Shown: positions 1 to 22,779 of the stretch, one piece after another
Numbering within the stretch: position 1 is the stretch's first letter
How the letters are laid out: the number at the start of each line of letters is the position of its first letter
IMG/VR virus record: IMGVR_UViG_3300028925_000708
Coordinates: 1-23,760 of that record
Reading direction: 5' to 3' (one strand)
From: a virus
Length of the DNA stretch: 23,760 nucleotides
The notes under the pieces: generated by a model
Told to the model about the DNA's origin: nothing
The model's database searches: none
The model's input: the letters and a program-made list of their open reading frames with translations, nothing else
Translations under genes and position numbers: made by a program

Positions 1-11
1 AGGGGATACTG

Positions 12-143
12 ATGTCGGAAAATAAAGACGTAACAGTACACGTCACAGGCGTCTCCATGTCAGGAGGTGTCAAGAATGACGGTAAGCGATCTTCTCCAGC
101 AGATCAGAAACAATCTGGAGCAAAGACGGCTGGAAATAGCTGA
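12..143 (+). CDS. Small hypothetical protein (43 aa)
   Basis: This short reading frame starts with MSENKDVTVHVTG and ends in a Ser/Lys/Gly/Gln-rich, probably disordered tail. The start is supported by AGGGGA at 1-6 and by a TGATG junction: a frame entering the window from the left (codons AGG GGA TAC TGA) stops at 10-12 and shares its last base with this ATG. Such stop/start overlaps are the rule in this phage. Against it, the frame overlaps the next gene by 68 bases in a different phase, longer than any other overlap here. No domain is recognisable and no function can be given. The upstream gene ending at 12 cannot be identified from three codons. Confidence 0.42.
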   Translation: MSENKDVTVHVTGVSMSGGVKNDGKRSSPADQKQSGAKTAGNS

Positions 144-273
144 CGGTATGCTTCGGGGTCGGATGTCCGACTTTGAGGCGTACCACAAAAACGTGGGCAT
201 TGCGGAGGGGCTGGAGCAGGCCGCTGACGTAATCCATGACACGATCAAAACTTTAAACGAAGAGGATGAATAA
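76..273 (+). CDS. Small helical hypothetical protein (65 aa)
   Basis: The ATG at 76 is chosen because a strong AGGAGG lies at 62-67, eight bases upstream. A GTG at 67 in the same frame would have the ribosome site inside itself. The product (MTVSDLLQQIRNNLEQ...) is charged and almost entirely helix-forming, with no cysteines, signal peptide or membrane segment. It ends in an acidic tail (NEEDE). The stop overlaps the region before the co-chaperonin start, so the two are probably translated together. Its place just ahead of the co-chaperonin, scaffold and capsid genes suggests a head-assembly or accessory role, but no family is recognised. Confidence 0.75.
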   Translation: MTVSDLLQQIRNNLEQRRLEIADGMLRGRMSDFEAYHKNVGIAEGLEQAADVIHDTIKTLNEEDE

Positions 274-274
274 C

Positions 275-679
275 ATGTCTCATCAACATGACGCAATCTA
301 CACTGATGAAGAAACCAGCGCGACGATTGGCTCTCATCAAATCCCAATTCCGATGAATTGGAAGGTTCTCGTTCAGCCTAATCAGGTAAAGATGACAACC
401 GCAGGCGGCATTCTGCTGCCAGACACCTCAAAAGACAACGAGGAATACCTGACCGCCCACGGCACCGTCTGTGCAATGGGTGATTTAGCGTATCGTGACC
501 GCGACACGGGTGAGCGTTGGAAGTCTGACGTTATGCCACAAATCGGAGATCGCGTGACCTACGGTAAATACGCTGGTCAGAAAATTGTTGTGAAGGGCGT
601 GAAATTCCTTCTGCTGAATGACGATGAGCTAACGTCTATTCTGCCAGAGGGCGTCGAAGTCGCCGCATATTTGGGGTAG
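275..679 (+). CDS. GroES-like co-chaperonin
   Basis: The product is a viral homologue of the 10-kDa co-chaperonin that caps the host GroEL folding chamber; phage versions such as T4 gp31 help fold the capsid protein. Residues 24-34 (IPMNWKVLVQP) match the first beta strand of GroES. Residues 40-63 match the mobile loop, with the signature AGGILLPD (43-50) corresponding to GGIVL in bacterial GroES. GDRVTYGKYAGQKI (91-104) and FLLLNDDEL (111-119) match the later strands. At 134 aa it is longer than the usual ~97 aa because of an N-terminal extension and an insert around 70-85. ATG 275 is preferred, with AGAGGA at a normal distance; an in-frame ATG at 266 lies too close to that site. The position next to the scaffold and capsid genes fits a capsid-folding role. 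Confidence 0.86.
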   Translation: MSHQHDAIYTDEETSATIGSHQIPIPMNWKVLVQPNQVKMTTAGGILLPDTSKDNEEYLTAHGTVCAMGDLAYRDRDTGERWKSDVMPQIGDRVTYGKYAGQKIVVKGVKFLLLNDDELTSILPEGVEVAAYLG

Positions 680-683
680 GGCA

Positions 684-1586
684 ATGTCAGAACAAGAGAA
701 AATTCTTGAAGAAATCGAGGCCGAAATTCATGCGGCCAAGGGTGAGCCAGAAGATTTTGAAATAGAAATCACTGACGATCCCGTCAAGGAGGCCAAGGAG
801 GAGGCCGCTGATGTTGCGGAGGAGCAGGAGCCAGACTACGGCCCCAAGGTGCAGAAGCGCATCAGCAAGCTCGTATCTCAGCGCAGGGAGGCTGAAATCC
901 AGGCGCGGCAAATACAGGAGCAGAACGCGCAACTGCAAAAGCGGCTAGAGCGTCTGGAGCAGGGATCGCATCAGAACGCCGAGCAGGAGTTTAACGCCAA
1001 ATACCAGCAGACAAAGCAGGCGCTTCACAAGGCCGTGGAGGAGGGAGACACTGACGCCCAAGTCAACTTCCAAGAGCAGATAGCCGACATGAGAGCGGCC
1101 ATGCGCGTGGCACAGGCCACTGACCAGTATCGGCGGCAGGACGTGCAACGACAGCAACAACGCCAACAACAGCAGCCACAGCAACAGGCGCAGGGCAATC
1201 AGCCACCTGAGAAGGCAATGGGCTGGTGGCAGCAAAATAACTGGTTCAATGCCACTGGTTTTGAGCGAGAAACAGCGGCGGCACGGGCTATAGACGTGCA
1301 GCTAGATTTGGAAGGATACGATAAGAATAGCGATGAATATTACTCGCAACTTAACGGGCGTTTACAAAAAGTGTTTCCTGAGTTAAGATCGCGCCCAAGT
1401 CCAAAGCAGCGGCCAAAAGGTAGGTCTCCAGTCGCCCCCACTACGGGCGGGTCAGCTTCTTATAAGGGCAATCGTGTGCGTATGACGCAAGAGCAACTCC
1501 GCATGGCTAGGGAACTTGGTATAAACGATGAACGTGGTCTCAAAAAATACGAAGCCGAAATTCGCCGTCAACAGAGGGAAAGCTAA
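684..1586 (+). CDS. Scaffold-like coiled-coil head assembly protein
   Basis: This 300-aa protein has an acidic N-terminus (residues 1-50), a long charged coiled-coil region (about 55-145), a glutamine-rich tract (about 150-170) and a basic C-terminal third ending in a helix. A conserved-looking block near 180-235 contains MGWWQQNNWF and later YYSQLNGRLQKVFPEL. An acidic, coiled-coil, low-complexity protein placed directly upstream of the capsid gene is the usual form of a phage scaffolding protein, which shapes the procapsid and is then removed. The assignment rests on architecture and position, not on a catalytic motif. It starts four bases after the co-chaperonin stop. No protease domain is visible in it. 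Confidence 0.72.
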   Translation: MSEQEKILEEIEAEIHAAKGEPEDFEIEITDDPVKEAKEEAADVAEEQEPDYGPKVQKRISKLVSQRREAEIQARQIQEQNAQLQKRLERLEQGSHQNAEQEFNAKYQQTKQALHKAVEEGDTDAQVNFQEQIADMRAAMRVAQATDQYRRQDVQRQQQRQQQQPQQQAQGNQPPEKAMGWWQQNNWFNATGFERETAAARAIDVQLDLEGYDKNSDEYYSQLNGRLQKVFPELRSRPSPKQRPKGRSPVAPTTGGSASYKGNRVRMTQEQLRMARELGINDERGLKKYEAEIRRQQRES

Positions 1587-1588
1587 TC

Positions 1589-2071
1589 ATGTCTGAGAAA
1601 CGCAACGCACGAGCAGAGCAAGCACGATCATCTGTGCGCGACGAGGAGATTCGTCCAGAAGCCGCATGGAAACCACCAGCACTGTTGGACGCACCAGAAG
1701 CCCGTCCCGGCTATGTCCAACGCTGGGTCGCAACCTCGATTCAAGGGAAGGACACCCCCGACAACGTGTATAAAAGAATGCGCGAAGGTTGGGAGCCACG
1801 CTCCGCTGACACTGTGAAAGAAAAGTTGTTTCCGACTATCAATCATGGACAGTGGACAGGATCAATTGGGATTGAGGGCATGTTGCTTTGTGAAATGCCA
1901 GTCGAACGTCATGCCGCGCAGAAGCGGTATTACCAAGGCAAAAACACAGAGCAAAATGAAGCAGTCTCAGGTGAACTTGATGCGTTAGGACGGCGTAGTG
2001 GGCAGAAGTTCTATCAAGAGCGGAAGTCTGAAATAAGTCGCGGCAGACAATTGTCTGCCATGAGCGATTAA
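1589..2071 (+). CDS. Conserved virion-associated protein of unknown function
   Basis: The 160-aa product is hydrophilic and basic at its start (SEKRNARAEQARSS). A central segment, PGYVQRWVATSI followed by DNVYKRMREGWEP, and a glycine-rich strand (GSIGIEGMLLCEMP) come next, with a basic helical tail. This arrangement (short basic N-terminus, RW motif, EGWE motif, then a GG-LL-P strand) resembles proteins coded between scaffold and capsid genes in marine podoviruses; that is recalled resemblance, not a search result. It begins two bases after the scaffold stop. There is no signal peptide or membrane segment. It may be an internal or head-vertex protein, but its function is unknown. Confidence 0.75.
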   Translation: MSEKRNARAEQARSSVRDEEIRPEAAWKPPALLDAPEARPGYVQRWVATSIQGKDTPDNVYKRMREGWEPRSADTVKEKLFPTINHGQWTGSIGIEGMLLCEMPVERHAAQKRYYQGKNTEQNEAVSGELDALGRRSGQKFYQERKSEISRGRQLSAMSD

Positions 2072-2094
2072 TCTTTACGCTATAGGAGCGAAAC

Positions 2095-2649
2095 ATGGCA
2101 AATGTAGACGCCGCATTCGGGTTTGTCCCGATCCGTCACATGAGCGGTAATGCGCCTCGCACAAATAAATATACCATCGCAAGCACTCTTGCGGAGAACA
2201 TCTTTAAGGGTGATCTGGTGATTATTGTTGCTGCGGGTACGCTTACACCTCACACTGCGACTGAAACCAATAACATTGGTGTGTTTGATGGGTGTTCGTA
2301 CACCGCATCTGACGGATCATATGTGTACAGTGAATATTGGCCCACAGGCACAACTGCTACTAACATCATTGCGTACATTTATGATGATCCGTACACTGTG
2401 TTTAAGGTTCAGTCTGCTGGCACAACCGCCCAAACAAATATCGGCAACTGCGCTGATGTTGTTGCTGGCGCTGGTTCAACAGTTACTGGTCAATCTGGTT
2501 TTGAAATTAGTGGAACAATGGCAGCGGGTATCGCAACCTGTAAAATCCTTGCTCTGTACGAAACTCCAGACAACGCATTCGGCGCAAATGCTGTCATGGA
2601 GGTGACCATTAATGAGCATCTTCTTGGCACCAATGTCGCTGGTATATAA
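2095..2649 (+). CDS. Head decoration-type structural protein
   Basis: This is a 184-aa, beta-rich, Thr/Ala/Gly-rich protein without cysteine-rich or membrane features. It begins MANVDAAFGFVPIRHMSG and contains repeated short strands typical of small capsid surface proteins. TAGGAGCG lies just before the ATG. It sits immediately upstream of the major capsid gene, where many phages place a decoration or capsid-stabilising protein. That role is inferred from position and composition; the sequence shows no diagnostic motif. Other minor head proteins remain possible. Confidence 0.68.
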   Translation: MANVDAAFGFVPIRHMSGNAPRTNKYTIASTLAENIFKGDLVIIVAAGTLTPHTATETNNIGVFDGCSYTASDGSYVYSEYWPTGTTATNIIAYIYDDPYTVFKVQSAGTTAQTNIGNCADVVAGAGSTVTGQSGFEISGTMAAGIATCKILALYETPDNAFGANAVMEVTINEHLLGTNVAGI

Positions 2650-2663
2650 GGAGGGCATGAACA

Positions 2664-3572
2664 ATGGCAATGAATAGAGCGAGTTTTGCGAAAACTCTAG
2701 AGCCGGGTCTGAATACTCTCTTTGGACTTGAGTACGACAGCTACCCCGCCGAATACACTGCGGTCTTTGAATCGAACAGCTCTCAAAAGGCTTACGAGGA
2801 AGACGTACTTTTGAGTGGTTTCGGACAAGCGCCAACAAAAACTGAGGGTGGAGCGGTCTCGTATGACGCCGCCTCACAACAGTGGACTGCGCGTTACCAG
2901 CACGAAACTGTCGCCTTGGCGTTCTCAATCACTGAGGAAGCTGAAGAGGATGGTCAGTATGGTTCGCTTGCCTCGCGTTACACAAAGGCGCTGGCACGGT
3001 CGATGGCATCGACCAAGGAAATCAAGGCTGCAAACGTCTTGAACAATTCTCAAGCTTCTGGCTACAATGGCGGCGATGGAGTTGTGATGTTGAGTGCCTC
3101 GCACCCAACGCAGAACGGCACTCAGTCCAACGTGCTTGGCACGGCGGCTGACTTGTCCGAGACATCTCTTGAGTCGATCCTGATTAACATCAGCGACATG
3201 AAAGATGATCGCGGTCTTCGGATCGCGGCACAGGGTATGCAACTGGTTATTCCAACTGCCTATCAGTTTACTGCCGAGCGCCTGCTGGAAAGCCAGCTTC
3301 GCACTGGTACAGCCGATAATGACATCAACGCCATCAAGGCTGGTGGTTATCTGCCCAAGGGCTATCACATCATGCGCCGTCTGACCGATTCAGATGCGTT
3401 CTTTGTTACCACTGATGTTCCAGATGGCCTCAAGCACTTCACCCGTTCAGCAATGAAAAAGGGTATGGAAGGCGATTTTGAGACTGGCAACGTGCGGTAC
3501 AAAGTACGCGAAAGATATAGCTTTGGCTGGACCGATTGGCGCGGCGTGTTTGGCACCGAGGGCGCAGCATAA
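2664..3572 (+). CDS. Major capsid protein, Mu gpT-like
   Basis: The 302-aa product resembles the Mu gpT type of HK97-fold major head subunit. Recognisable blocks are FAKTLEPGLNTLFG (residues 8-21), a YPAEYTAVFE strand, the EEDVLLSGFG block near 45-55, RYQHETVALAFSITEE, a SASHP motif (gpT-type proteins have TDHP or similar here), DDRGLRI, and a C-terminal FETGNVRYKVRERYSFGWTD with RGVFG at the end. Length is normal for the family and no cleavable delta domain is apparent; the separate upstream scaffold fits that. AGGAGGGC precedes the start. The gene is followed at once by a strong terminator, so it closes the head transcription block. The fold assignment is from remembered family features. 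Confidence 0.88.
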   Translation: MAMNRASFAKTLEPGLNTLFGLEYDSYPAEYTAVFESNSSQKAYEEDVLLSGFGQAPTKTEGGAVSYDAASQQWTARYQHETVALAFSITEEAEEDGQYGSLASRYTKALARSMASTKEIKAANVLNNSQASGYNGGDGVVMLSASHPTQNGTQSNVLGTAADLSETSLESILINISDMKDDRGLRIAAQGMQLVIPTAYQFTAERLLESQLRTGTADNDINAIKAGGYLPKGYHIMRRLTDSDAFFVTTDVPDGLKHFTRSAMKKGMEGDFETGNVRYKVRERYSFGWTDWRGVFGTEGAA

Positions 3573-3607
3573 ACAACCCAATCTTCTCTTCCTGTTGGGT
3601 CAAACTG

Positions 3608-3634
3608 GGGCGGTCTTCGGATCGCCCTTTTTTT
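3608..3634 (+). terminator. Intrinsic terminator with UUCG tetraloop after the capsid gene
   Basis: GGGCGGTC (3608-3615) pairs with GATCGCCC (3620-3627), with one G-U pair, across a TTCG loop, and seven T follow directly. C(UUCG)G is an exceptionally stable RNA tetraloop. A weaker hairpin (ACCCAA 3576-3581 with TTGGGT 3595-3600) stands just upstream. The element ends transcription after the capsid gene. It closely resembles the terminator at 4385-4413. Confidence 0.93.
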
Positions 3635-3728
3635 ATTTTAAATAAAAATGCATTTTATTTGTATCTGTCTATTGTATTCTAAATTGTATCCCCTATATCT
3701 ATTACAACAGAAGCAAGGGAGAGATCAA
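3635..3728 (+). promoter_or_regulatory. AT-rich leader, possible promoter for the small-gene cassette
   Basis: After the terminator lies a very AT-rich stretch with three TTGTAT hexamers starting at about 3659, 3672 and 3684. TTGTAT (3672-3677) with TATATC (3694-3699) gives a 16-base spacer, a weak sigma-70-like pair. AAGGGAGAG near 3714-3722 is the ribosome site for the gene at 3729. A promoter is expected here because a strong terminator lies immediately upstream, but the hexamers are poor matches. Confidence 0.33.
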
Positions 3729-4025
3729 ATGACAACGGCCACAGTGACATATCCAGAAGCAATCGAAGCGATCCGCAACGCCAACATTAATGCTTCTCAG
3801 CAACGCGCAGCAATTAACTTGATAAATAGAATTAAGTCGGACACGCAATCTTCATTACCATCAGATGTGCCAACATATGAGATCGAAATTGATAAATCTA
3901 AGTATGGGAAAAGCGCCAGTTTCTTTTGCGTAGGTAAGGGGGAAATTTACTGGAATATGATTTCAGCAGTCATTGGGCCAAGAGGCGGCAAAAATCATAT
4001 AAGAAAACAATTCGAAATTAGATAA
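3729..4025 (+). CDS. Hypothetical protein (98 aa) in accessory cassette
   Basis: The ATG at 3729 follows AAGGGAGAG at a normal distance; an in-frame ATG at 3648 lies in the AT-rich leader with no ribosome site and is rejected. The product starts MTTATVTYPEAIEAIRNANI. Its first half looks helical (about residues 8-45), followed by a strand-rich second half (YEIEIDKSKYGKSASFFCVG) with a basic C-terminus. No motif is recognised. It is AT-richer than the flanking virion genes and sits between two terminators together with a DNA-binding protein gene, so it may be an accessory gene rather than a virion component. Confidence 0.72.
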   Translation: MTTATVTYPEAIEAIRNANINASQQRAAINLINRIKSDTQSSLPSDVPTYEIEIDKSKYGKSASFFCVGKGEIYWNMISAVIGPRGGKNHIRKQFEIR

Positions 4026-4033
4026 ATCAAAAC

Positions 4034-4050
4034 GGGGGCCATGCGCCCCC
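4034..4050 (+). other. GC-rich intergenic hairpin
   Basis: GGGGGC (4034-4039) pairs with GCCCCC (4045-4050) across a five-base loop. No T run follows, so it is not a standard terminator. It may protect or process the mRNA after the 3729 gene. A similar hairpin occurs at 23252-23267. Confidence 0.5.
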
Positions 4051-4059
4051 ATCCAAAAC

Positions 4060-4084
4060 GTAACACTAACGGCGTTAGCGTTAC
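4060..4084 (+). promoter_or_regulatory. 11-bp inverted repeat upstream of the HTH gene (possible operator)
   Basis: GTAACACTAAC and GTTAGCGTTAC form an 11-base inverted repeat with one mismatch around GGC. It ends about 12 bases before the AAAGGAGA ribosome site of the winged-helix gene at 4107. This is the placement expected of an autoregulatory operator or of an RNA hairpin controlling translation. The structure is seen directly; the binding role is inferred. Confidence 0.5.
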
Positions 4085-4106
4085 AAAAATCCAAAGGAGA
4101 TAAAAT

Positions 4107-4376
4107 ATGTCAAACGGTTTTCCATCATCAATGGCAATGCTTGATCACTTGCTTGAGGGCCACCCAATCTCGCTGATCGAAGCGATGAATATGTTTGGGG
4201 TCTGCAACCCCGCCGCAGAGCTAACAAAGCTCCGCAAGCAAGGATGGATCATCCAGTCTCAACGGGTCAAGATGACCAAAATCATTGTTCGCATGAACAA
4301 ATACATGGTTATGAAGCCACCGTCCCAGCTTCCACATAAGGAATGTCTTATGATGGAATACTGGATCAGCAAATAA
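4107..4376 (+). CDS. Small helix-turn-helix (winged-helix) DNA-binding protein
   Basis: Residues 9-50 (MAMLDHLLEGHPISLIEAMN and onward to GWIIQSQ) follow the pattern of a phage winged-helix domain. A first helix is followed by a short turn, then a helix with the form ISLIEAMNMFG, then a recognition helix with AAELTKLRKQGW, where RKQGW leads into the wing. The remaining residues (52-70, KMTKIIVRMNKYMV) could form the wing strands. At 89 aa it is a single-domain protein. AAAGGAGA precedes the ATG. The inverted repeat just upstream suggests autoregulation. It lies alone with one other small gene between twin terminators, inside an otherwise structural region. Target genes are unknown. Confidence 0.75.
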   Translation: MSNGFPSSMAMLDHLLEGHPISLIEAMNMFGVCNPAAELTKLRKQGWIIQSQRVKMTKIIVRMNKYMVMKPPSQLPHKECLMMEYWISK

Positions 4377-4384
4377 TCAAGCAG

Positions 4385-4413
4385 GGGCCGTCTTCGGATG
4401 GCCCTTTCTTTTT
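4385..4413 (+). terminator. Intrinsic terminator with UUCG tetraloop after the HTH gene
   Basis: GGGCCGTC (4385-4392) pairs with GATGGCCC (4397-4404), one G-U pair, around a TTCG loop, followed by TTTCTTTTT. Loop, closing pairs and layout match the terminator at 3608-3634; the middle GTCTTCGGAT is identical in both. Confidence 0.92.
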
Positions 4414-4491
4414 GTTCAGACCTGTTGTATTGTGCCGACATCCCTGACAGGTGCGTCCCGTGCCTGACTTAACCCAAGACAGGAGATCATC

Positions 4492-5088
4492 ATGGGTACA
4501 ACTACTTTTACAGGTGCGGTACGTTCTGAAAACGGCTTTATCGACGTAACGAAAAACGCCACCACAGGCGCTTACACCACAAATTCAACATACGACAATG
4601 ACGCCACAATTGGCGGCAATGTTACTATCGCTGGAACCCTCGCGGTCACGGGAGCCACGACAGGCATCAAATCAGTTGTAACAATTACAACTTCAACTTA
4701 CGCCGTCACAGCGGCCCAGTCAGGAACCACGTTTATTTTATCAAGGGCGGCAGGAATTGTGGTTACGCTTCCAGAATTAACAGCAGCGGCAAGCGGTGAA
4801 CAATACACGTTTATAGTTGGAACAACATTCACTGGCGCAGGCCAGATTAATACGGGCGCTGCCGCCGATCTGTATTCTGGGTTTGCTATATTATCAGACC
4901 CCGCAACGGCTGGAGACACCAACACGTTTATTCCAGATCAATCGAACGATGACACGATTGATATGGGCGCAATAGAGCAGGGGTGGCTGTCGGGCGGCAT
5001 GATCACGCTAACCGCTCAGTCGGCTACGCGCTGGCATTGCGCGGCCTACCTGTTAGGTGACGCGACACTTGCGACACCGTTCGAATAA
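4492..5088 (+). CDS. Beta-rich virion structural protein
   Basis: The 198-aa product starts MGTTTFTGAVRSENGFIDVT and is rich in Thr, Ala, Gly and Ile with almost no charged runs, giving a predicted all-beta fold. The segment ATIGGNVTIAGTLAVTGATT resembles the beta-helical stalk motif seen in fibre proteins. AGGAGA precedes the ATG. Its position after the head block and before the connector genes suggests a minor head, decoration or short-fibre protein. No enzyme motif is visible. The exact role is unassigned; structural nature is likely from composition and context. Confidence 0.72.
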   Translation: MGTTTFTGAVRSENGFIDVTKNATTGAYTTNSTYDNDATIGGNVTIAGTLAVTGATTGIKSVVTITTSTYAVTAAQSGTTFILSRAAGIVVTLPELTAAASGEQYTFIVGTTFTGAGQINTGAAADLYSGFAILSDPATAGDTNTFIPDQSNDDTIDMGAIEQGWLSGGMITLTAQSATRWHCAAYLLGDATLATPFE

Positions 5089-5097
5089 ATCAATCTG

Positions 5098-5115
5098 GCG
5101 GGGGGCAACCCCCGC
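5098..5115 (+). other. Intergenic hairpin with GCAA tetraloop
   Basis: GCGGGGG (5098-5104) pairs perfectly with CCCCCGC (5109-5115) around GCAA, a GNRA-class loop. No T run follows, and the next gene starts 22 bases later, so it is more likely an mRNA-stability or processing element than a terminator. Confidence 0.6.
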
Positions 5116-5136
5116 TCCACAATCTAGGGGATTGGG

Positions 5137-5742
5137 ATGAGCATACAATCAGACGTGCAGGTTGGATTTATCAGCGATGAGGTCGTGGCAGACGGCGATT
5201 TTATTGTTACGGCAGCGAGGCCAAACACAACCGCTACATTAGCCAACGCATCCTTCGCATCAGGAGGGGCAAGGCTTTTAGCCGTCACCACAGCAGGGAC
5301 TAGCGATAACGGCAAGACCACAACTATTACAGGCACTGATGTGTTTGGAGATTCTATCTCTGAGGTAATTACTTCTACGGGGTCGGCAGAGGCTGTAAAC
5401 GGGGCAAAGTACTTTAAGACTGTAACCTCTGTTGTTTGTTCCGCGCAGTACGCAGGCAACATCACAGTGGGCAGTACCGCAAGTGCAGCACAGGCCGTGG
5501 CTGGCGGTGGTCGCACTCGCTTAAAGGGATACTCTATTGTCTCTGGTGGCACCGCTGGCGTTATTAATTTCTATAATGGAACGCCAGAGGACGGCACGGT
5601 GACATTCAAGGCCCGTACTGTTGGCACGGACAACACAACTATGGACAATACAATCCCAGACGAAGGGATTTTATTCAAAGATGGGTTGTCCATCCAATAT
5701 ACGGTTGCAACAATTGACATGATGAACTTTTTCTTCGCATAA
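5137..5742 (+). CDS. Virion structural protein of unknown role
   Basis: The 201-aa product is beta-rich and Thr/Gly/Ala-rich (MSIQSDVQVGFISDEVVADG...). Its middle has repeated TTxGTSDNGKTTTITGTD-like strands, and a conserved-looking C-terminal half contains KGYSIVSGGTAGVINFYNGT. TAGGGGATT stands before the ATG. The neighbours are structural and connector genes in one direction, so a minor head, neck or fibre component is the likely role. There is no membrane segment or signal peptide. The second half resembles a small immunoglobulin-like or jelly-roll domain by composition only. Confidence 0.7.
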   Translation: MSIQSDVQVGFISDEVVADGDFIVTAARPNTTATLANASFASGGARLLAVTTAGTSDNGKTTTITGTDVFGDSISEVITSTGSAEAVNGAKYFKTVTSVVCSAQYAGNITVGSTASAAQAVAGGGRTRLKGYSIVSGGTAGVINFYNGTPEDGTVTFKARTVGTDNTTMDNTIPDEGILFKDGLSIQYTVATIDMMNFFFA

Positions 5743-5754
5743 TAGGGTGGATGC

Positions 5755-6438
5755 ATGGCGACTTCAGACACAGTAGCGTTTCGCCCAGATGTTGAAGAAA
5801 TCATCGCGGAGGCTTACGAGCGGTGTGGGATCGATCCGCAGACGCAAACGGGATACAAGGCTGTGTCGGCTAGGCGCAGCCTAAACCTGTTATTTAGTGA
5901 GTGGGCCAACAGGGGCATCAATTACTGGGCGGTAAAGCAGCAGACGCTGACTCTGGTGAACGGCCAGACAACGCCCTACACGCTGCCTGCTGGCACTATA
6001 GACATTATGGACGCCGTCATTCGGGACAGCGCAGGCACAGACACGTCTGACCAAATTATTAATCGTGTGTCGATTGCCGACTACAATCAACTGCCAAACA
6101 AAACATCTTCGGGCAAGCCAAGCCAGTATATGCTGGACAAGCAATACACGCCCCTGCTTTACATCTGGCAGATACCAAACGTCACCACATACAGTTTGAA
6201 TTATTGGTCAGTAAATCAGCTAGATGATATCACGGCCAGCAATCAAGACGCTGACGTACCGTACCGCTGGTCTGACTGCATCTGCGCGGGGCTGGCAAGC
6301 AAGCTGGCGTTGAAAAACGCCCCCGACAGGTTTCAAATATTAAACGAAATCTACGAGAGGGCATTCACGTTTGCGGCGGCGTCTGACAATGATGGTGTCA
6401 GTCTGAGGGTTCAGCCAACTGCGCTGAATTTATCCTGA
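5755..6438 (+). CDS. Head-to-tail connector/adaptor-like protein
   Basis: Residues 10-60 (VEEIIAEAYERCGID... then ARRSLNLLFSEWANRGINYW) form an N-terminal helical bundle. A beta domain beginning QQTLTLVNGQTTPYTLPAGT follows, then a helical C-terminus (CAGLASKLALKNAPDR). This order, with helices containing SLNLLFSEWANRG and a YTLPAGTIDI strand, is typical of P22 gp4-type head-completion or adaptor proteins, which bind beneath the portal ring and hold packaged DNA. At 227 aa the length fits. The stop overlaps the next start (TGATG at 6436-6440), so the two are translationally coupled. Family assignment is by remembered pattern. Confidence 0.72.
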   Translation: MATSDTVAFRPDVEEIIAEAYERCGIDPQTQTGYKAVSARRSLNLLFSEWANRGINYWAVKQQTLTLVNGQTTPYTLPAGTIDIMDAVIRDSAGTDTSDQIINRVSIADYNQLPNKTSSGKPSQYMLDKQYTPLLYIWQIPNVTTYSLNYWSVNQLDDITASNQDADVPYRWSDCICAGLASKLALKNAPDRFQILNEIYERAFTFAAASDNDGVSLRVQPTALNLS

Positions 6439-7055
6439 TGGCAAAATACGCAAGAGGCAAAAAATCTCAGGCAATTAGCGACATTAGTGGCCTTCGGGTT
6501 CCCTATACGCAATTAAAAACCACTTGGGACGGCCTGCGCGTATCTCCAGAAGATTACGAGCCAAAACAACCGCAGCTTACGCCTGCTAAAAATGTTGTCG
6601 ATGCCACGGCCCTATTTAATCCACGGCCCGATAACGATCCCGAAAATGTCACGTTTTTCGTTGGATTTAATTACGACCCGTTTCTAGACCCAAGACAGAG
6701 ACCGGGGAGCGGCGTGTATGGCGCAGGCGGCACTGCACGGCTAGACTTCACAGACTTTGAGTATGGCCCAGAGGCGACAGGGGCGGCTGGAACGGGCGGC
6801 ATAGGAACGGCAGCATTCGCTGTCGAGGTAACAGGTGTATCTGGTAGTGGCGGCACGGGCAACGTGGGCGTCGAGGCTCTGGAAATATCCATCGCTGAAG
6901 CTGGCGTTGCTGGCACTGGAGCGGTTGGGGCAGAGGCTCTAGAGCTTTCCATTGCAGAATCTGGAGTTGCTGGCACGGGCGCTGTCGGAAGCGAAAGTGT
7001 TGAATTTACTGGCTGGGGTCAAAACGGTTGGGGAGCAGATGGATGGGGCGAATAA
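6438..7055 (+). CDS. Repeat-containing virion protein with Gly-Trp C-terminus
   Basis: The N-terminal half (residues 1-95) is hydrophilic, with WDGLRVSPEDY and FFVGFNYDPFLDPRQRPG. Residues about 112-193 contain four imperfect repeats of roughly 20-23 aa, built on G-(V/A)-(A/S)-G-(T/S)-G-x-(V/I)-G followed by a strand such as EALEISIAEA. The protein ends FTGWGQNGWGADGWGE, a Gly-Trp motif whose like also appears as GWGVGGWGEST in the nozzle protein at 11622. Such motifs may pack against each other at a tail interface, but this is conjecture. It is coupled to the preceding gene. Low-complexity repeats and position indicate a structural protein. Confidence 0.68.
   Translation: MAKYARGKKSQAISDISGLRVPYTQLKTTWDGLRVSPEDYEPKQPQLTPAKNVVDATALFNPRPDNDPENVTFFVGFNYDPFLDPRQRPGSGVYGAGGTARLDFTDFEYGPEATGAAGTGGIGTAAFAVEVTGVSGSGGTGNVGVEALEISIAEAGVAGTGAVGAEALELSIAESGVAGTGAVGSESVEFTGWGQNGWGADGWGE
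6771..7010 (+). repeat. Four imperfect 60-69 bp tandem repeats in a virion gene
   Basis: Units begin at about 6771, 6834, 6903 and 6963 and encode G-x-x-G-T-G-x-x-G followed by a short hydrophobic strand. The last two full units (GVAGTGAVG-(A/S)-E) are closest to each other, as expected from recent unit duplication. The units differ at many third positions, so the array is not a recent simple slip. Confidence 0.65.
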
Positions 7056-7056
7056 A

Positions 7057-7683
7057 ATGAGCTACACAACACTAAAGGCCAACATCCAAGCGTTTTTGGA
7101 AGATGACTCGACAGAGTTTGTCGCGTCGATTGACGTGATGATAGCGCAGGCCGAAGAAATGGTTTTTCAGCGACTGCCAAATCTGCCATGCTTTCGCGCT
7201 ACATCTAGCGCGGCCAATCTTGTGGCAGGCACGGCGTCATACACAATTCCCACGGCGAGAATGATCCGACAGGTATCAATTACCGACACAAATGTTGTGA
7301 CGTATCTTGACCACAGGGTGGATTCATACATCCGAGATTACTGGCCCAATGCGGCAACGCAAGGCACCCCGCGAATGTACAGTACAGACAGCGCGGGAAC
7401 GTCTGGGACGGTCATTACATTGGCACCAACGCCGTCATCCACCTTGGCCTACAGTGTGGACTTCATAGCGCCTGAGACGGGTCTCAGTTCGTCTAATGCC
7501 AATACATGGATCGACACCAACGCGCCTGCGGTTATGCTCGCAGCGGCTTTGCACGAGGCGTCTGCGTTTCTAAAAGCGCCAGAGACGCTGTCACTATACA
7601 AAACGCAATTTGACGAGGCGGTGCAATCTCAGGTACAAGAGATGCAACGCGACTACGCAGCAGAATATAACGGAGGCATATAA
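7057..7683 (+). CDS. Phage adaptor-like (neck) protein
   Basis: The start at 7057 (MSYTTLKANIQAFLED) lies right after the previous stop; an earlier in-frame ATG at 6952 would overlap the repeat gene by over 100 bases and is rejected. The 208-aa product has an N-terminal helical bundle (DVMIAQAEEMVFQRLPNL), a central beta domain (AGTASYTIPTARMIRQV...) and a C-terminal long helix pair (MLAAALHEASAFLK). The helix-beta-helix order, with a tyrosine-rich strand and LHEAS..LKAPE helix, recalls adaptor proteins that form the ring between portal and tail nozzle. It overlaps the next gene by one base (TAATG). Confidence 0.7.
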   Translation: MSYTTLKANIQAFLEDDSTEFVASIDVMIAQAEEMVFQRLPNLPCFRATSSAANLVAGTASYTIPTARMIRQVSITDTNVVTYLDHRVDSYIRDYWPNAATQGTPRMYSTDSAGTSGTVITLAPTPSSTLAYSVDFIAPETGLSSSNANTWIDTNAPAVMLAAALHEASAFLKAPETLSLYKTQFDEAVQSQVQEMQRDYAAEYNGGI

Positions 7684-8111
7684 TGGCTATTACACAGGCG
7701 ATGTGTACGCAGTTCAAACGAGATGTTATGCTGGGGCTGCATGATCTCGACAGCGACACAATTAAAATTGCCCTATTCACGAGTTCAGCATCTCTTGGGG
7801 CAGCGACCACTGTCTACGCCTCATCTGGGATTAACGAAGTGGCAAACGGAAATGGATACACAACGGGCGGCGTAACGCTGGCAAGTGCGTCTGTCGTTAA
7901 CAACAGCACCAGTGGTTGCTTCGATGCCACTGACCCAAGCTGGACATCTGCGACATTCACGGCGCGGGGCGCGATGATATGGAATGACACCGAGAGCGAC
8001 TTGGCAATTGCCATTCTTGATTTTGGTGGCGACTTCACGGTTGCTGGAGGAACCTTTAAAATTGTATTCCCTGCGGCCACTGCAAGCAATGCGATAATTA
8101 GGATAGATTGA
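7683..8111 (+). CDS. Conserved phage structural protein (142 aa)
   Basis: The product contains FKRDVMLGLHDLDSDTIKIALFTSSASLGAATTVY, a GYTTGGVTL strand, and ends ATASNAIIRID. This pattern (helix with F-K-x-(E/D), 'IKIALFTSSA', 'GGVTL', ARGAMIWN, AIAILDFGG, 'SNAIIRI') is a recurrent small beta-sandwich protein coded next to tail-fibre genes in many phages and prophages. Its exact function is not established to my knowledge. The gene is coupled to its upstream neighbour by TAATG and followed one base after its stop by the fibre start, so the three are made together. A tail-fibre connector or small head protein are both possible. Confidence 0.75.
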   Translation: MAITQAMCTQFKRDVMLGLHDLDSDTIKIALFTSSASLGAATTVYASSGINEVANGNGYTTGGVTLASASVVNNSTSGCFDATDPSWTSATFTARGAMIWNDTESDLAIAILDFGGDFTVAGGTFKIVFPAATASNAIIRID

Positions 8112-11621: not shown

Positions 11622-13535
11622 ATGCCGCTGCAATTGCTAAAATACAACGCTGGCATTGTGAAAGACACCACCGAATATTCTGCTGGCAAGAACGGGCCAT
11701 TTTATGTTGATAGTGATCTTGTTCGTTTTATAAACGGATACCCAGAGAAAATTGGTGGATGGGAAAAAGACAAATTTTACGCATTAGATTCGGCTGGAGG
11801 AACAACATCCACTGAAGCCACGCTAACTGGCATTGGCCGAAAAATGGTTTTTTGGAGGGCGTCTGATGGTGTTGACAGAATAGCTGTCGGAACACACAAT
11901 CATCTTTACATAATTCAAAACAACGCAATTTATGATATTACGCCACTGCGAAAAACCACAAGCAATCTCTCTAATCCTTTAGTTGTGACCAATGGTAGTA
12001 CAACTATTACTGTAACCGATAACTCTCATGGCGCTTCAAACGGTGATTGGGTTGTAATAAATTCTGCCACTGCCACAGGCGGCATATCTGCCGAAACAAT
12101 TAACAGAATGGCAGGGTATCAAATAACTTTTATTAACTCTAACTCTTATTCAATACAATCGCCCGATGCAGCAACAAGCGGAGCCACAGGCGGCGGCACG
12201 ACAATAGACATAAAATACCTTATTGGTGCCGCCGAAGGATTAGGCACACAAAGTGCTAGTCCAGCACTTGGATGGGGCGTTGGTGGATGGGGTGAATCAA
12301 CGTGGAACACGCCACGATCTTTGTCTCTGTCTCAAGTCAATCTTGAAAACTCTTCATGGAGTCTAAATATTTGGGGCGAAGATTTAATCGCCAATGTCAG
12401 AGGCAAACGGATATATTACTGGGATACATCTGGCTCAACAACATCAAGGGCCGTTCTTGTGTCCAGTCTGGCAGGGGCAGCGTCTGTGCCTGTTGAAGTT
12501 CGGGCAACTGTTGTCAGCTTCCCCGACAGACATTTTATTGCCGCTGGAGCCAGTGTATATGTTGCCGCCGATGGAAGTTCTGGAACATTAGATCCAATGT
12601 TGGTGCGCTGGTCTACGCAAGAAGATTTTACAAAATTTGCTCCAACAGCACTCAATACTGCTGGCGATCAGAGGCTTGAGGTTGGAACCAAAATTGTTGC
12701 CTTGGTTAACACGCGAGAGGAAACAATTATATCCACTGATGAGGCCGTGTATGGCATGACATTCGTTGGTGAACCATTTATATTTTCGTTTAGATTGCTT
12801 GGTACTGGCACTAGCGCAATTGGCTTAAACTCTATGATTGCAATCGATGGAAATACATATTGGATGGGCAATAGATCGTTCTATATATACGATGGCGTAA
12901 TCAACGAAATACCATGCCCATTAAAGCATTTTGTCTTTGATAGATTGCAAACATCATTTTTTGATAAAACTGTGGCTGGTCATAATGTCGAATTTAACGA
13001 AGTAACGTGGTTTTATGTCTCTGATCAAAATACAGCAGGGACAACCAATCCAGAGCCAGATAGCTATGTAACTTATAATTACAACGAAAAAGTATGGTCG
13101 ATTGGATCAATGGACAGAACGGCTTGGAACGATGCATTCGGTTCCCGCGAGAAACCATTTGCATTTAGCCCTCAAGGATTATTGTATAACCATGAGACAG
13201 GAACAAGCGACGATGGTTCAGCCATGACCGCATTTATTGAGGCAGCGCCCCGTGAAATCACAGCAGAAGGCGAAAACCTTTACATGGTGGATCGAATTGT
13301 TCCTGACGTAACAATGGGCGCAAATAGCAATTTATCTTTGTTTATGAACTCTCGTAAATACCCTAACGCCAGCGAAACTGTAAAGGGGCCGTTCAACATT
13401 ACGTCTACAACAGAGAAAATCAGCACTCGCGTTAAAGGTCGGCAAATTGCTTTAAAATTTGAAAGCACAGGTACGCAAGACGAATGGCGGATTGGTGACC
13501 TTCGGATCGACACAAAAATAGCGGGGATGAGATGA
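11622..13535 (+). CDS. Large tail nozzle/tubular-B-like structural protein
   Basis: The 637-aa product begins LLKYNAGIVKDTTEYSAGKN and continues FYVDSDLVRFINGYPEKIGGWEK. This start ('PGI..D.T.Y..GG.W.D.D.VRFR.G.PEKIGGW') is widely seen in phage proteins that form the lower tail tube of podoviruses. The body is beta-rich with repeated strand-turn units, consistent with a propeller or tubular-B fold. It contains NGSTTITVTDNSHGASNGDWV and GWGVGGWGEST, and later TAWNDAFG and RGRQ-type strands. No enzymatic motif is visible. It starts one base after the endolysin stop and overlaps the next gene by ATGA. Composition is AT-richer than the early virion genes. Confidence 0.75.
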   Translation: MPLQLLKYNAGIVKDTTEYSAGKNGPFYVDSDLVRFINGYPEKIGGWEKDKFYALDSAGGTTSTEATLTGIGRKMVFWRASDGVDRIAVGTHNHLYIIQNNAIYDITPLRKTTSNLSNPLVVTNGSTTITVTDNSHGASNGDWVVINSATATGGISAETINRMAGYQITFINSNSYSIQSPDAATSGATGGGTTIDIKYLIGAAEGLGTQSASPALGWGVGGWGESTWNTPRSLSLSQVNLENSSWSLNIWGEDLIANVRGKRIYYWDTSGSTTSRAVLVSSLAGAASVPVEVRATVVSFPDRHFIAAGASVYVAADGSSGTLDPMLVRWSTQEDFTKFAPTALNTAGDQRLEVGTKIVALVNTREETIISTDEAVYGMTFVGEPFIFSFRLLGTGTSAIGLNSMIAIDGNTYWMGNRSFYIYDGVINEIPCPLKHFVFDRLQTSFFDKTVAGHNVEFNEVTWFYVSDQNTAGTTNPEPDSYVTYNYNEKVWSIGSMDRTAWNDAFGSREKPFAFSPQGLLYNHETGTSDDGSAMTAFIEAAPREITAEGENLYMVDRIVPDVTMGANSNLSLFMNSRKYPNASETVKGPFNITSTTEKISTRVKGRQIALKFESTGTQDEWRIGDLRIDTKIAGMR

Positions 13536-14040: not shown

Positions 14041-15062
14041 TGGCAGTTCAGTATGACGCAAATGGCATCGCCCTGACAGATGAGCGCGGAATTGCTCTCC
14101 CAGACCCATATGGCAATTTAGGCGCATTGCCAGCAGAGGACGGCACGGAGACAGTCGATGTCTACCAGATGCAATCCCAGCCAGCCCCCACTCTCGCTCA
14201 AGGCTTGCGCCTTCAAGACGTTTACGGCACCGCCGCCATGCCAATGTATGAATTTGTAAAGCCAGTTCAAACAGGCACCCGCACGTTCTCTACTGTCCCA
14301 GACTTTGGTGGCACAACTTTTAATGGCGAACCAATGATGGCCTCGCCACGCACTGCAAATGCAACCTCGACTGATATGGGGCCAATGCGGATCGCGGCGG
14401 CTGGCGAATTGGGCAGTATGTATGGCGGTAGAGTTGGCCGTTTGATGAGCGGTTCTAGTGGGTTGGGTTTTGGTGAAGCCATTAAGGCTGGTGGTAAATC
14501 AATGTTGCCCGGTTCTGAAGTTGTGGTTCCTGGCGGAAACACAAATTATGGGTATGCTGGGGCAGGCTACGGTATAGGTCGCACGGTTGGCGGTTTGTTG
14601 GCAGGCGAAGATACAGGTGACGCTGTAAAGGGCGGCGTAAAGGCTGGGATCGGTGGCGCAATTGGTACAGCCATTGGTGGCCCAATTGGCGGTTTTATCG
14701 GCGCGTCTATTGGTGGCCGTGTGATCTGCAACGAACTACAGCGGCAGGGCGTAATGAGCAGGCAAAACGTGCTGCTGGACTACCGCTTCACCAGAGATTA
14801 CCTGACGCCACAACACGTCAATGGATATCATGTATGGGCCGTACACGTTGTAAAGCAAATGCGTAAGGGCAAAGGCGTCAAGATGTGGCGGCACGTAGCC
14901 CAACACAGAGCCAACGAAATCGCTTATATTTACGAAAAGCGCGACAAGCCCGACTATCTGGGCAAGATTTATAGAAAAATTCTGGAACCAATCTGCTGGT
15001 CGGTTGGCTTCTTCTGCGAAAAAACTGACTGGTCTGTGCTATATAAAGCGAAGGAAACGTAA
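14040..15062 (+). CDS. Glycine-zipper virion protein, possible DNA-ejection component
   Basis: The 340-aa product has three parts. Residues 1-190 are low-complexity and Gly/Ala/Met-rich (IALTDERGIALPDPYGNLGA). Residues about 190-230 form a glycine-zipper membrane-like segment (KAGIGGAIGTAIGGPIGGFI). The C-terminal ~110 residues are a basic, Trp/Tyr-rich domain beginning CNELQRQGVMSRQNVLLDYR and containing GYHVWAVHVV and LGKIYRKILEPICW. Glycine zippers insert in or assemble across membranes. In a phage tail operon this suggests a role in passing DNA through the host envelope, but that is inference. It is coupled to both neighbours (TGATG and TAATG). Confidence 0.7.
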   Translation: MAVQYDANGIALTDERGIALPDPYGNLGALPAEDGTETVDVYQMQSQPAPTLAQGLRLQDVYGTAAMPMYEFVKPVQTGTRTFSTVPDFGGTTFNGEPMMASPRTANATSTDMGPMRIAAAGELGSMYGGRVGRLMSGSSGLGFGEAIKAGGKSMLPGSEVVVPGGNTNYGYAGAGYGIGRTVGGLLAGEDTGDAVKGGVKAGIGGAIGTAIGGPIGGFIGASIGGRVICNELQRQGVMSRQNVLLDYRFTRDYLTPQHVNGYHVWAVHVVKQMRKGKGVKMWRHVAQHRANEIAYIYEKRDKPDYLGKIYRKILEPICWSVGFFCEKTDWSVLYKAKET

Positions 15063-22010: not shown

Positions 22011-22092
22011 TCCTGATTTTTGATTTTTGATCTTACCTAATACATATAGTGATACCCCAAGATATATCAAGGGGTATCTTTAAATAATTTAT
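22011..22092 (-). repeat. 82-base intergenic repeat, copy A
   Basis: This segment is nearly identical to 22698-22779; the two differ by two compensating one-base indels. It runs from the first base of the SprT stop codon to the ribosome-site region of the next gene, so it is a complete intergenic leader. It holds a palindrome (22051-22078), a candidate promoter and the AGGAG ribosome site. Confidence 0.93.
22043..22078 (-). promoter_or_regulatory. Promoter with overlapping palindromic operator, copy A
   Basis: On the - strand TTGATA (22070-22065) and TATATG (22048-22043), 16 bases apart, form a sigma-70-like pair. The -35 sits inside a 28-base palindrome (22051-22078) with arms GATACCCC and GGGGTATC and a central GATATATC. 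A protein bound there would block RNA polymerase. The promoter is predicted; the palindrome is seen directly. Confidence 0.6.
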
Positions 22093-22697: not shown

Positions 22698-22779
22698 TCC
22701 TGATTTTTGAATTTTTGATCTTACCTAATACATATAGTGATACCCAAGATATATCAAGGGGTATCTTTAAATAATTTAT
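22698..22779 (-). repeat. 82-base intergenic repeat, copy B
   Basis: This is the partner of 22011-22092. It also begins exactly at the first base of the upstream stop codon (the protease gene) and ends with the AGGAG ribosome site of the SprT gene. Relative to copy A it has one extra A in the T-rich leader and one C fewer in the palindrome arm, so both copies are 82 bases. Confidence 0.93.
22731..22765 (-). promoter_or_regulatory. Promoter with overlapping palindromic operator, copy B
   Basis: TTGATA (22757-22752) and TATATG (22736-22731) recur on the - strand, but the lost C shortens the spacer to 15 bases and shortens one palindrome arm (22739-22765, 27 bases). This copy may therefore be weaker or bind its regulator less tightly than copy A. 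It would drive the SprT-like gene. Confidence 0.57.

Follow-up and report, generated by a model that had tools for sequence, protein, structure and literature searches.

A moron-like, multi-slot gene cassette between matching terminators behind the capsid gene of a CRP-901-type marine phage

Extra genes that lie between conserved phage genes, are absent from close relatives and carry a promoter-like leader and a terminator of their own are, in the definition used here, morons. Integron gene cassettes form arrays, genes then hairpins, that grow and shrink gene by gene, and the PeSLs of T4-type phages are reportedly the subject of Arbiol 2010 and Comeau 2014. Parts of PMC4503421 describe these T4-type PeSLs as promoter-terminator motifs that occur at gene borders and go with gene shuffling, and the same line of work is cited in a part of PMC5931544. 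The CRP-901-type roseophages are presented in sections of PMC10149686 as a lytic, genus-level group with the CHAB-I-5 lineage as host and as a genus widespread across oceans; the cassette locus described below is not mentioned in those sections on CRP-901-type roseophages. No description of the locus was found in the open-licence PMC literature, and an earlier description is possible.

The stretch of DNA analysed (the window) is a 23,760-bp IMG/VR virus record and represents a contig of a CRP-901-type (Roseobacter) phage, a grouping based on the resemblance of its capsid and gene order to CRP-901. The order of capsid, GroES and tail-adaptor genes is alike in the window and the CRP-901-type roseophages, whereas the site behind the capsid gene is empty in both isolates. 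A GroES co-chaperonin encoded by the phage (PF00166, E 7.7e-15) lies at 266-679 of the window, upstream of the capsid genes. At the site itself, two terminators (T1 and T2) bracket a 776-bp block with an AT-rich leader, a gene termed orfA and a winged-helix gene, all three present where a preliminary description of this DNA had placed a leader, an unknown gene and a winged-helix gene. The features of the locus are as follows.

2664-3572, plus strand: major capsid gene (Mu gpT-like), left flank (PF25209, E 2.1e-13; phrog_371, E 1.3e-17)
3607-3628, plus strand: terminator T1 with UUCG loop, left cassette boundary (from its fold and the junction against the empty site L002)
3629-3728, plus strand: AT-rich leader (25% GC against 48.6% for the window)
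3672-3698, plus strand: promoter-like TTGTAT-N16-TATAT in the leader, the only match in the window
3729-4025, plus strand: orfA (family F9), 98 aa, slot 1 (near-identical gene elsewhere in L115)
4034-4050, plus strand: hairpin linker A, GGGGGCC-N2-GCGCCCCC (from its fold; recurs between cassette genes)
4060-4084, plus strand: hairpin linker B, GTAACACTAACGGCGTTAGCGTTAC (fold of -9.6 kcal/mol; exact scan of IMG/VR)
4107-4376, plus strand: winged-helix gene (family F1, HTH_39), 89 aa, slot 3 (PF14090)
4383-4406, plus strand: terminator T2 with UUCG loop, right cassette boundary (from its fold)
4442-4494, plus strand: Mu-gpT-DE RNA (RF03012, from Rfam), covering the ribosome-binding site of g198 and ending at its AUG
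4472-4497, plus strand: proposed pseudoknot of ACCCA (4472-4476) with UGGGU (4493-4497; start codon and codon 2 of g198), from covariation
4492-5088, plus strand: g198, next gene of the structural block, uncharacterised, right flank (from its position)

T1 (9-pair stem, UUCG loop, tail TTTTTTATTT) folds at -16.1 kcal/mol, with z -4.5 against dinucleotide shuffles, and T2 (10-pair stem, UUCG loop, tail TCTTTTTGTT) at -18.0 kcal/mol with z -4.2; a compensated change of one pair, G-C to C-G, distinguishes their stems, and the pair agrees with the twin UUCG terminators of common sequence and architecture that had been proposed. With its hairpin and T run, T2 would provide the cassette with a terminator of its own at its end. 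Terminator-like sites as a class are not enriched in 1-8000 (10 against a shuffle mean of 8.2). GTCTTCGGAT is present in the window in three exact copies (3214, 3613 and 4390, that at 3214 being within the capsid gene) and, when one mismatch is allowed, in six against 0.85 expected, a number reached in 0 of 100 shuffles. A 16-mer in the capsid gene (3211-3226, GCGGTCTTCGGATCGC) is identical to part of T1; it was rejected as a conserved site, being present in 4 of 225 capsid rows, and the sharing is therefore probably due to chance. The preliminary description had regarded both flanks as virion genes: this stands for the capsid gene, through PF25209 and phrog_371, and g198 counts as a virion gene solely through its position, its best PHROG (E 0.034) and Pfam (E 0.93) family matches not being significant.

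Within the cassette, orfA has no PHROG or PADLOC family, its matches in Pfam (E 0.11) and NCBIfam (E 0.037) are weak, and its single-sequence structure model is poor (pLDDT 46.7). The winged-helix protein matches Pfam HTH_39 (PF14090) with E 7.8e-9 and 35.7 bits, above the gathering threshold of 21.3, and its AlphaFold model (mean pLDDT 82) has the succession helix-helix-helix-strand-helix-strand, for which Foldseek returned generic winged-helix matches in the PDB (best E 0.13) and phage HTH proteins (best E 8.8e-4). Searches of NCBIfam and PADLOC gave nothing significant for this protein, no solved relative was found by sequence, and a pattern scan of the genome collection yielded 19 stretches with 0 confirmed relatives; neither it nor the orfA product was matched in the phage collection. 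The winged-helix protein is probably a DNA-binding regulator.

An IMG/VR capsid scan, of which the best 80 of at least 597 relatives were used, identified L002 as the nearest among these (capsid 98% identical), and in L002 the block is missing and the site is empty. The L002 flanks are identical to those of the window at 194 of 201 and 189 of 191 positions, and the junction falls inside the terminator core: the capsid stop is followed by GGGGCGGTCTTCGGATC, as in T1, and then by GCCCTTTCTTTTTGTTCAGACC, as after T2, the single terminator thus consisting of the left side of T1 and the right side of T2. A single terminator that is T1-type on the left and T2-type on the right is common to six near empty sites (L002, L005, L068, L202, L223 and L234); the pattern by which L202, L223 and L234 were retrieved included the TTTCTTTTT tail, and the scans behind the other three did not. 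Among the distinct sites with a capsid identity of at least 76%, 30 of 102 were occupied and 72 of 102 empty (occupied being a gap of more than 300 nt, with identical sites merged), in a pool enriched for occupied sites through the linker B, leader and winged-helix scans; with the capsid scan alone (best 80 of at least 597), 9 of the 67 sites with both ends were occupied. A minimum of 14 occupancy changes is required on a capsid tree of 95 rows, 26 of them occupied. The preliminary description had suggested a moron-like insertion, to be checked by synteny in relatives, and our comparison bears this out: the two genes are not conserved at this place, and the empty site of L002, with flanks 97-99% identical, together with the 72 empty sites, shows the absence from close relatives that belongs to a phage moron. 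At this site orfA was found only in the window's own virus (L121 is 99.9% identical over 8133 bp).

CTTCGG-type terminators flank both ends in 23 of the 30 occupied sites under a strict pattern, and L013, one of the other seven, has a matching terminator pair with a GAAA loop; the L013 cassette, with F2 and F10 between these terminators, lies at 5900-6760. Sites of the UUCG type were occupied more often (8/18 vs 1/49, Fisher p 5e-5); as a cause of occupancy the UUCG type was not supported, with tree-independent pairs giving about 1 in the same direction, 2 in the opposite direction and 9 without difference. The terminator with the TTTCTTTTT tail is present in at least 119 stretches, and in 101 of 104 newly fetched loci it is located 20-140 nt upstream of a g198-type start, the remaining 3 having no recognised start. 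At 129-177 nt, the gaps are short in farther relatives (capsid 55-62%) obtained via the terminator pattern. In L069, L076, L079 and L080 (capsid about 61-63%), two similar small genes are present at the site with other terminators.

Where the locus had been described as one moron, the insertion stands and the single unit does not, the comparison of relatives revealing a multi-slot mosaic with two further hairpin linkers. Fourteen cassette families were obtained by protein clustering and a 15th was found in L269. Where the linkers are present, the order is T1, leader, slot-1 gene, hairpin A, slot-2 gene, hairpin B, F1 and T2, from which genes and hairpin A are sometimes missing; slot 1 holds F9 (orfA), F2, F4, F6, F12 or F13, F5 and F3 are the slot-2 genes, and the linker-free occupied sites (e.g. 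L013, L020, L030, L042 and L067) hold one or two genes. In the near-identical pair L087/L128 the winged-helix gene is present or absent between linker B and T2; L088 and L091 differ in the slot-1 gene between leader and hairpin A, with flanks identical at 287/287 and 552/557 positions; F5 is replaced by F3 in slot 2 between L119 and L122; F3 is present or absent in slot 2 between L122 and L135; and L137 and L129 differ by F5 and a copy of hairpin A as a unit. When IMG/VR was scanned for exact copies, linker B turned up in 35 stretches, 34 from this site and the unrelated L150, and the leader core in 19 stretches, all 19 behind a capsid terminator; leaders closely similar to that of the window precede F2, F6, F8, F12 and F13 and, in L091, the linkers alone. 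For the ten other families (F2-F8 and F11-F13), none of the Pfam matches was above the cut-off and PHROGs gave unknown-function matches only (F7, E 3.6e-29; F11, E 8.1e-10; F2, E 0.0011). The locus is a moron-like multi-slot exchange site, richer than first stated: in place of a lone gene, several ordered genes are joined by recurring hairpins, and in a lytic marine phage type.

Homologues of the cassette genes were also found away from the site. A second copy of orfA in L115 is identical at 303 of 304 nt, the identity starting at the ATG, continuing for 7 nt beyond the stop and ending just before a hairpin different from linker A, and its leader has the form TTGAAG-N17-TATATA; since the large terminase of L115 is 85% identical to that of CRP-901/902, L115 is of the same phage type, with orfA elsewhere in the genome. 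A homologue of F13 (72%) in the cassette-bearing record G001 stands behind TTGTAT-N16-TATAT and before a GGGGCCACCGCCCC hairpin, and F7, which belongs to the cassettes of L020, L182 and L249, has a CRP-901 homologue (69%) at 14333-14899 that immediately follows a UUCG hairpin and TTGTAA...TATAT. The winged-helix family was found at 30 loci in IMG/VR, of which 12 belong to this site and 18 do not, and several of the loci adjoin CTTCGG hairpins; in five of the 18 (L096, L099, L101, L105 and L112) a helicase (65-67% identity) and a VRR nuclease (67-71% identity) resembling those of CRP-901 lie upstream of the gene, the same setting that holds the F13 homologue of G001 and F7 of CRP-901. F3 occurs outside the site in L281 and L283. 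Four families, including orfA and the winged-helix gene, thus recur in presumed early regions of related phages and, with homologues on the replication side, these cassette genes would belong to a pool of small, presumably early, accessory genes. For the other families, no homologue of this sort came to light.

The motif TTGTAW-N16/17-TATAT, defined post hoc once the leaders had been seen, occurs once in the window (0.03 expected), at a place within the leader; the first 27 kb of CRP-901 hold four matches (0.06 expected), each ahead of a gene. In scoring against the E. coli sigma-70 consensus, the 21 leaders scored were not above dinucleotide shuffles (p 0.19-1.0), and of eight long phage records scanned for the motif four gave no match, including the cassette-bearing G003 and G004, and G008 gave one. 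CRP-901 repeats TTGTAATCTGTGACA-N2-TGTCA...TATAT ahead of several genes, and the cassettes of L042 and L067 carry near variants of this promoter-like form. The two terminators and the promoter-like leader lead us to infer that the cassette may be transcribed independently.

The CRP-901 (L258) promoter-like repeats, which may be phage-specific operators, are located at 12017, 13266 and 14279 on the plus strand and at 1598 on the minus strand; in the three on the plus strand, the -35-like and -10-like boxes enclose a TGTGACA-N2-TGTCA palindrome. The palindrome is unlike the inverted repeat of the window's own promoter-like copies. On the minus strand of the window, at 22017-22092 and 22705-22779, near-identical promoter-like leaders (CCCCTTGATATATCTTGGG...TATCACTATATG) each stand before a minus-strand gene and are spanned by the inverted repeat GATACCCC/GGGTATC.

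The presence or absence of the cassette at a terminator, the mosaic slots and the replication-side homologues in related phages are, in our judgement, likely to reflect a moron-like cassette of early-type genes between late units, with its own leader promoter and with exchange at terminators and hairpins, perhaps via a Sak4-like protein. The block at 3629-4406 would occupy a landing site between two late transcription units, the capsid unit ending at T1 and the g198 unit beginning after T2. Its genes would be of an early, host-takeover type, and transcription would start at the leader's own promoter and stop at T2, so that they could be expressed early despite their position in the late block. 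Whole cassettes would be gained, lost and replaced by recombination inside the conserved UUCG terminators, with which the junctions read agree, and the leader and the two hairpin linkers, A and B, would be the points of exchange for single genes. Ordinary RecA recombination is poor on stretches of about 20-30 nt; the shared stretches are of about this length, and exchange by that route would therefore be poor. A phage-encoded Sak4-like annealing protein and its SSB would be the likely machinery, and would act where the genomes of co-infecting phages are identical over short stretches. Two CRP-901 proteins have family matches of this kind, gp14 to Sak4-like annealing proteins (phrog_124, E 1.4e-47) and gp15 to a phage SSB (DUF669); the Sak4 family was matched in 4 of 8 related records, one match being a fragment at a contig end, and as phrog_124 was also matched in 13 of 14 control genomes, the match alone is not specific for Sak4. 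Single-strand annealing activity of the Sak4 of phage HK620, stimulated by its SSB, is described in a part of PMC5928155.

We entertain with some doubt the wider proposal that CRP-901-type phages maintain a dedicated exchange port behind the capsid gene, an integron-like array in which gene-plus-hairpin units would be inserted, removed and reordered at the terminators and hairpin linkers by the phages' own single-strand annealing and no site-specific recombinase, and through which early counter-host genes would pass between marine phages. Illegitimate recombination at arbitrary points, with the survivors falling between transcription units and the terminators kept as insulation, appears unlikely to us, although selection alone would leave junctions where those read are found, either in non-coding DNA or at a start codon, and the left junctions of L088/L091 and L119/L122 lie in the leader or near the start codon rather than in a hairpin; the hairpin junctions could likewise result from selection for intact genes and transcription units and not from preferred recombination there. 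Against entry at arbitrary points stand the T1-type left and T2-type right sides of the single terminator in the six near empty sites, and the ends of L013, which match each other with a GAAA loop as expected of copied or recombined ends. That the cassette is a late accessory pair, read only from capsid transcripts leaking through T1, would accord with a leader that lacks a consensus sigma-70 promoter (E. coli consensus), but this is quite improbable given the stable hairpin and T run of T1 and a leader that is nearly unchanged ahead of different genes. A block that is ancestral and was deleted from most relatives through recombination between the two terminators would leave just such a T1/T2 chimera as that of L002, and deletion between the terminators probably also occurs, but as the origin of the cassette it is likewise quite improbable, since the different genes at occupied sites (14 families and a 15th) and the near-identity of orfA (303/304 nt) to a gene elsewhere in a sister phage point to gain.

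A moron-like exchange cassette of this kind would work in the manner of T4 PeSL shuffling as cited above and resembles integron arrays, and we file it under neither. The succession of the T1 hairpin and a promoter-like leader at a gene border could correspond to a PeSL, and CRP-901 also has units of a hairpin and then a promoter-like sequence ahead of presumed early genes; however, the window phage is CRP-901-type by capsid and gene order, not T4-type, and among the exact copies scanned the leader (19/19) and linker B (34/35) belong to this one site only. As in integrons, the array varies gene by gene and hairpins stand behind genes; no integrase is among the annotated features of CRP-901, itself an empty-site phage. 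The natural series of empty sites, sites with one, two or three genes, and replacements shows where phage genomes break and join, and the cassette site is a place to seek small host-takeover or counter-defence proteins in marine phages.

Beside the cassette, after T2, the Mu-gpT-DE RNA at 4442-4494 scores 61.8 bits, above the RF03012 gathering threshold of 49, and it was found in 15 of the 16 occupied loci scanned. The remaining locus, L013, gave no Mu-gpT-DE match, and its g198-type leader looks like another RNA type. Since the cassette sits between gpT and Mu-gpT-DE, the RNA stays with the downstream gene. Rfam types Mu-gpT-DE as 'Gene; sRNA', whereas here it remains with g198 across cassette insertions and appears to be paired with the start codon, an arrangement more suggestive of control over g198 translation than of an sRNA; the natural insertions part the RNA from the capsid gene and make this orphan RNA testable as start-codon control of g198. 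A part of PMC7657543 lists Mu-gpT-DE among RNAs with extra covarying pairs, and some of the pseudoknot finding may therefore be known already.

In the Rfam outer stem, CCUG pairs with CAGG of the ribosome-binding site; for the loop of Mu-gpT-DE, covariation points to a probable pairing with g198 at its start codon and codon 2. The conserved-loop base before CC and the middle base of codon 2 covary (G-C 53, C-G 49, A-G 1), the pair being kept in 102 of 103 parsed elements (of 134 distinct elements, the 31 of other types lying outside the count) against 70 in the best of 10,000 shuffles, and its mutual information of 1.00 bit is the highest in the matrix. As both covarying bases are within 25 nt and a neighbouring, non-pairing loop base also reaches 0.93 bit, the module may move as one block. 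On the capsid tree (93 rows, the one row with A dropped) the pair type changes 18 times and 15/15 independent pairs agree (p 6e-5), and other-backbone loops with a matching pair (L046, L048, L211, L231 and L240) suggest separate events.
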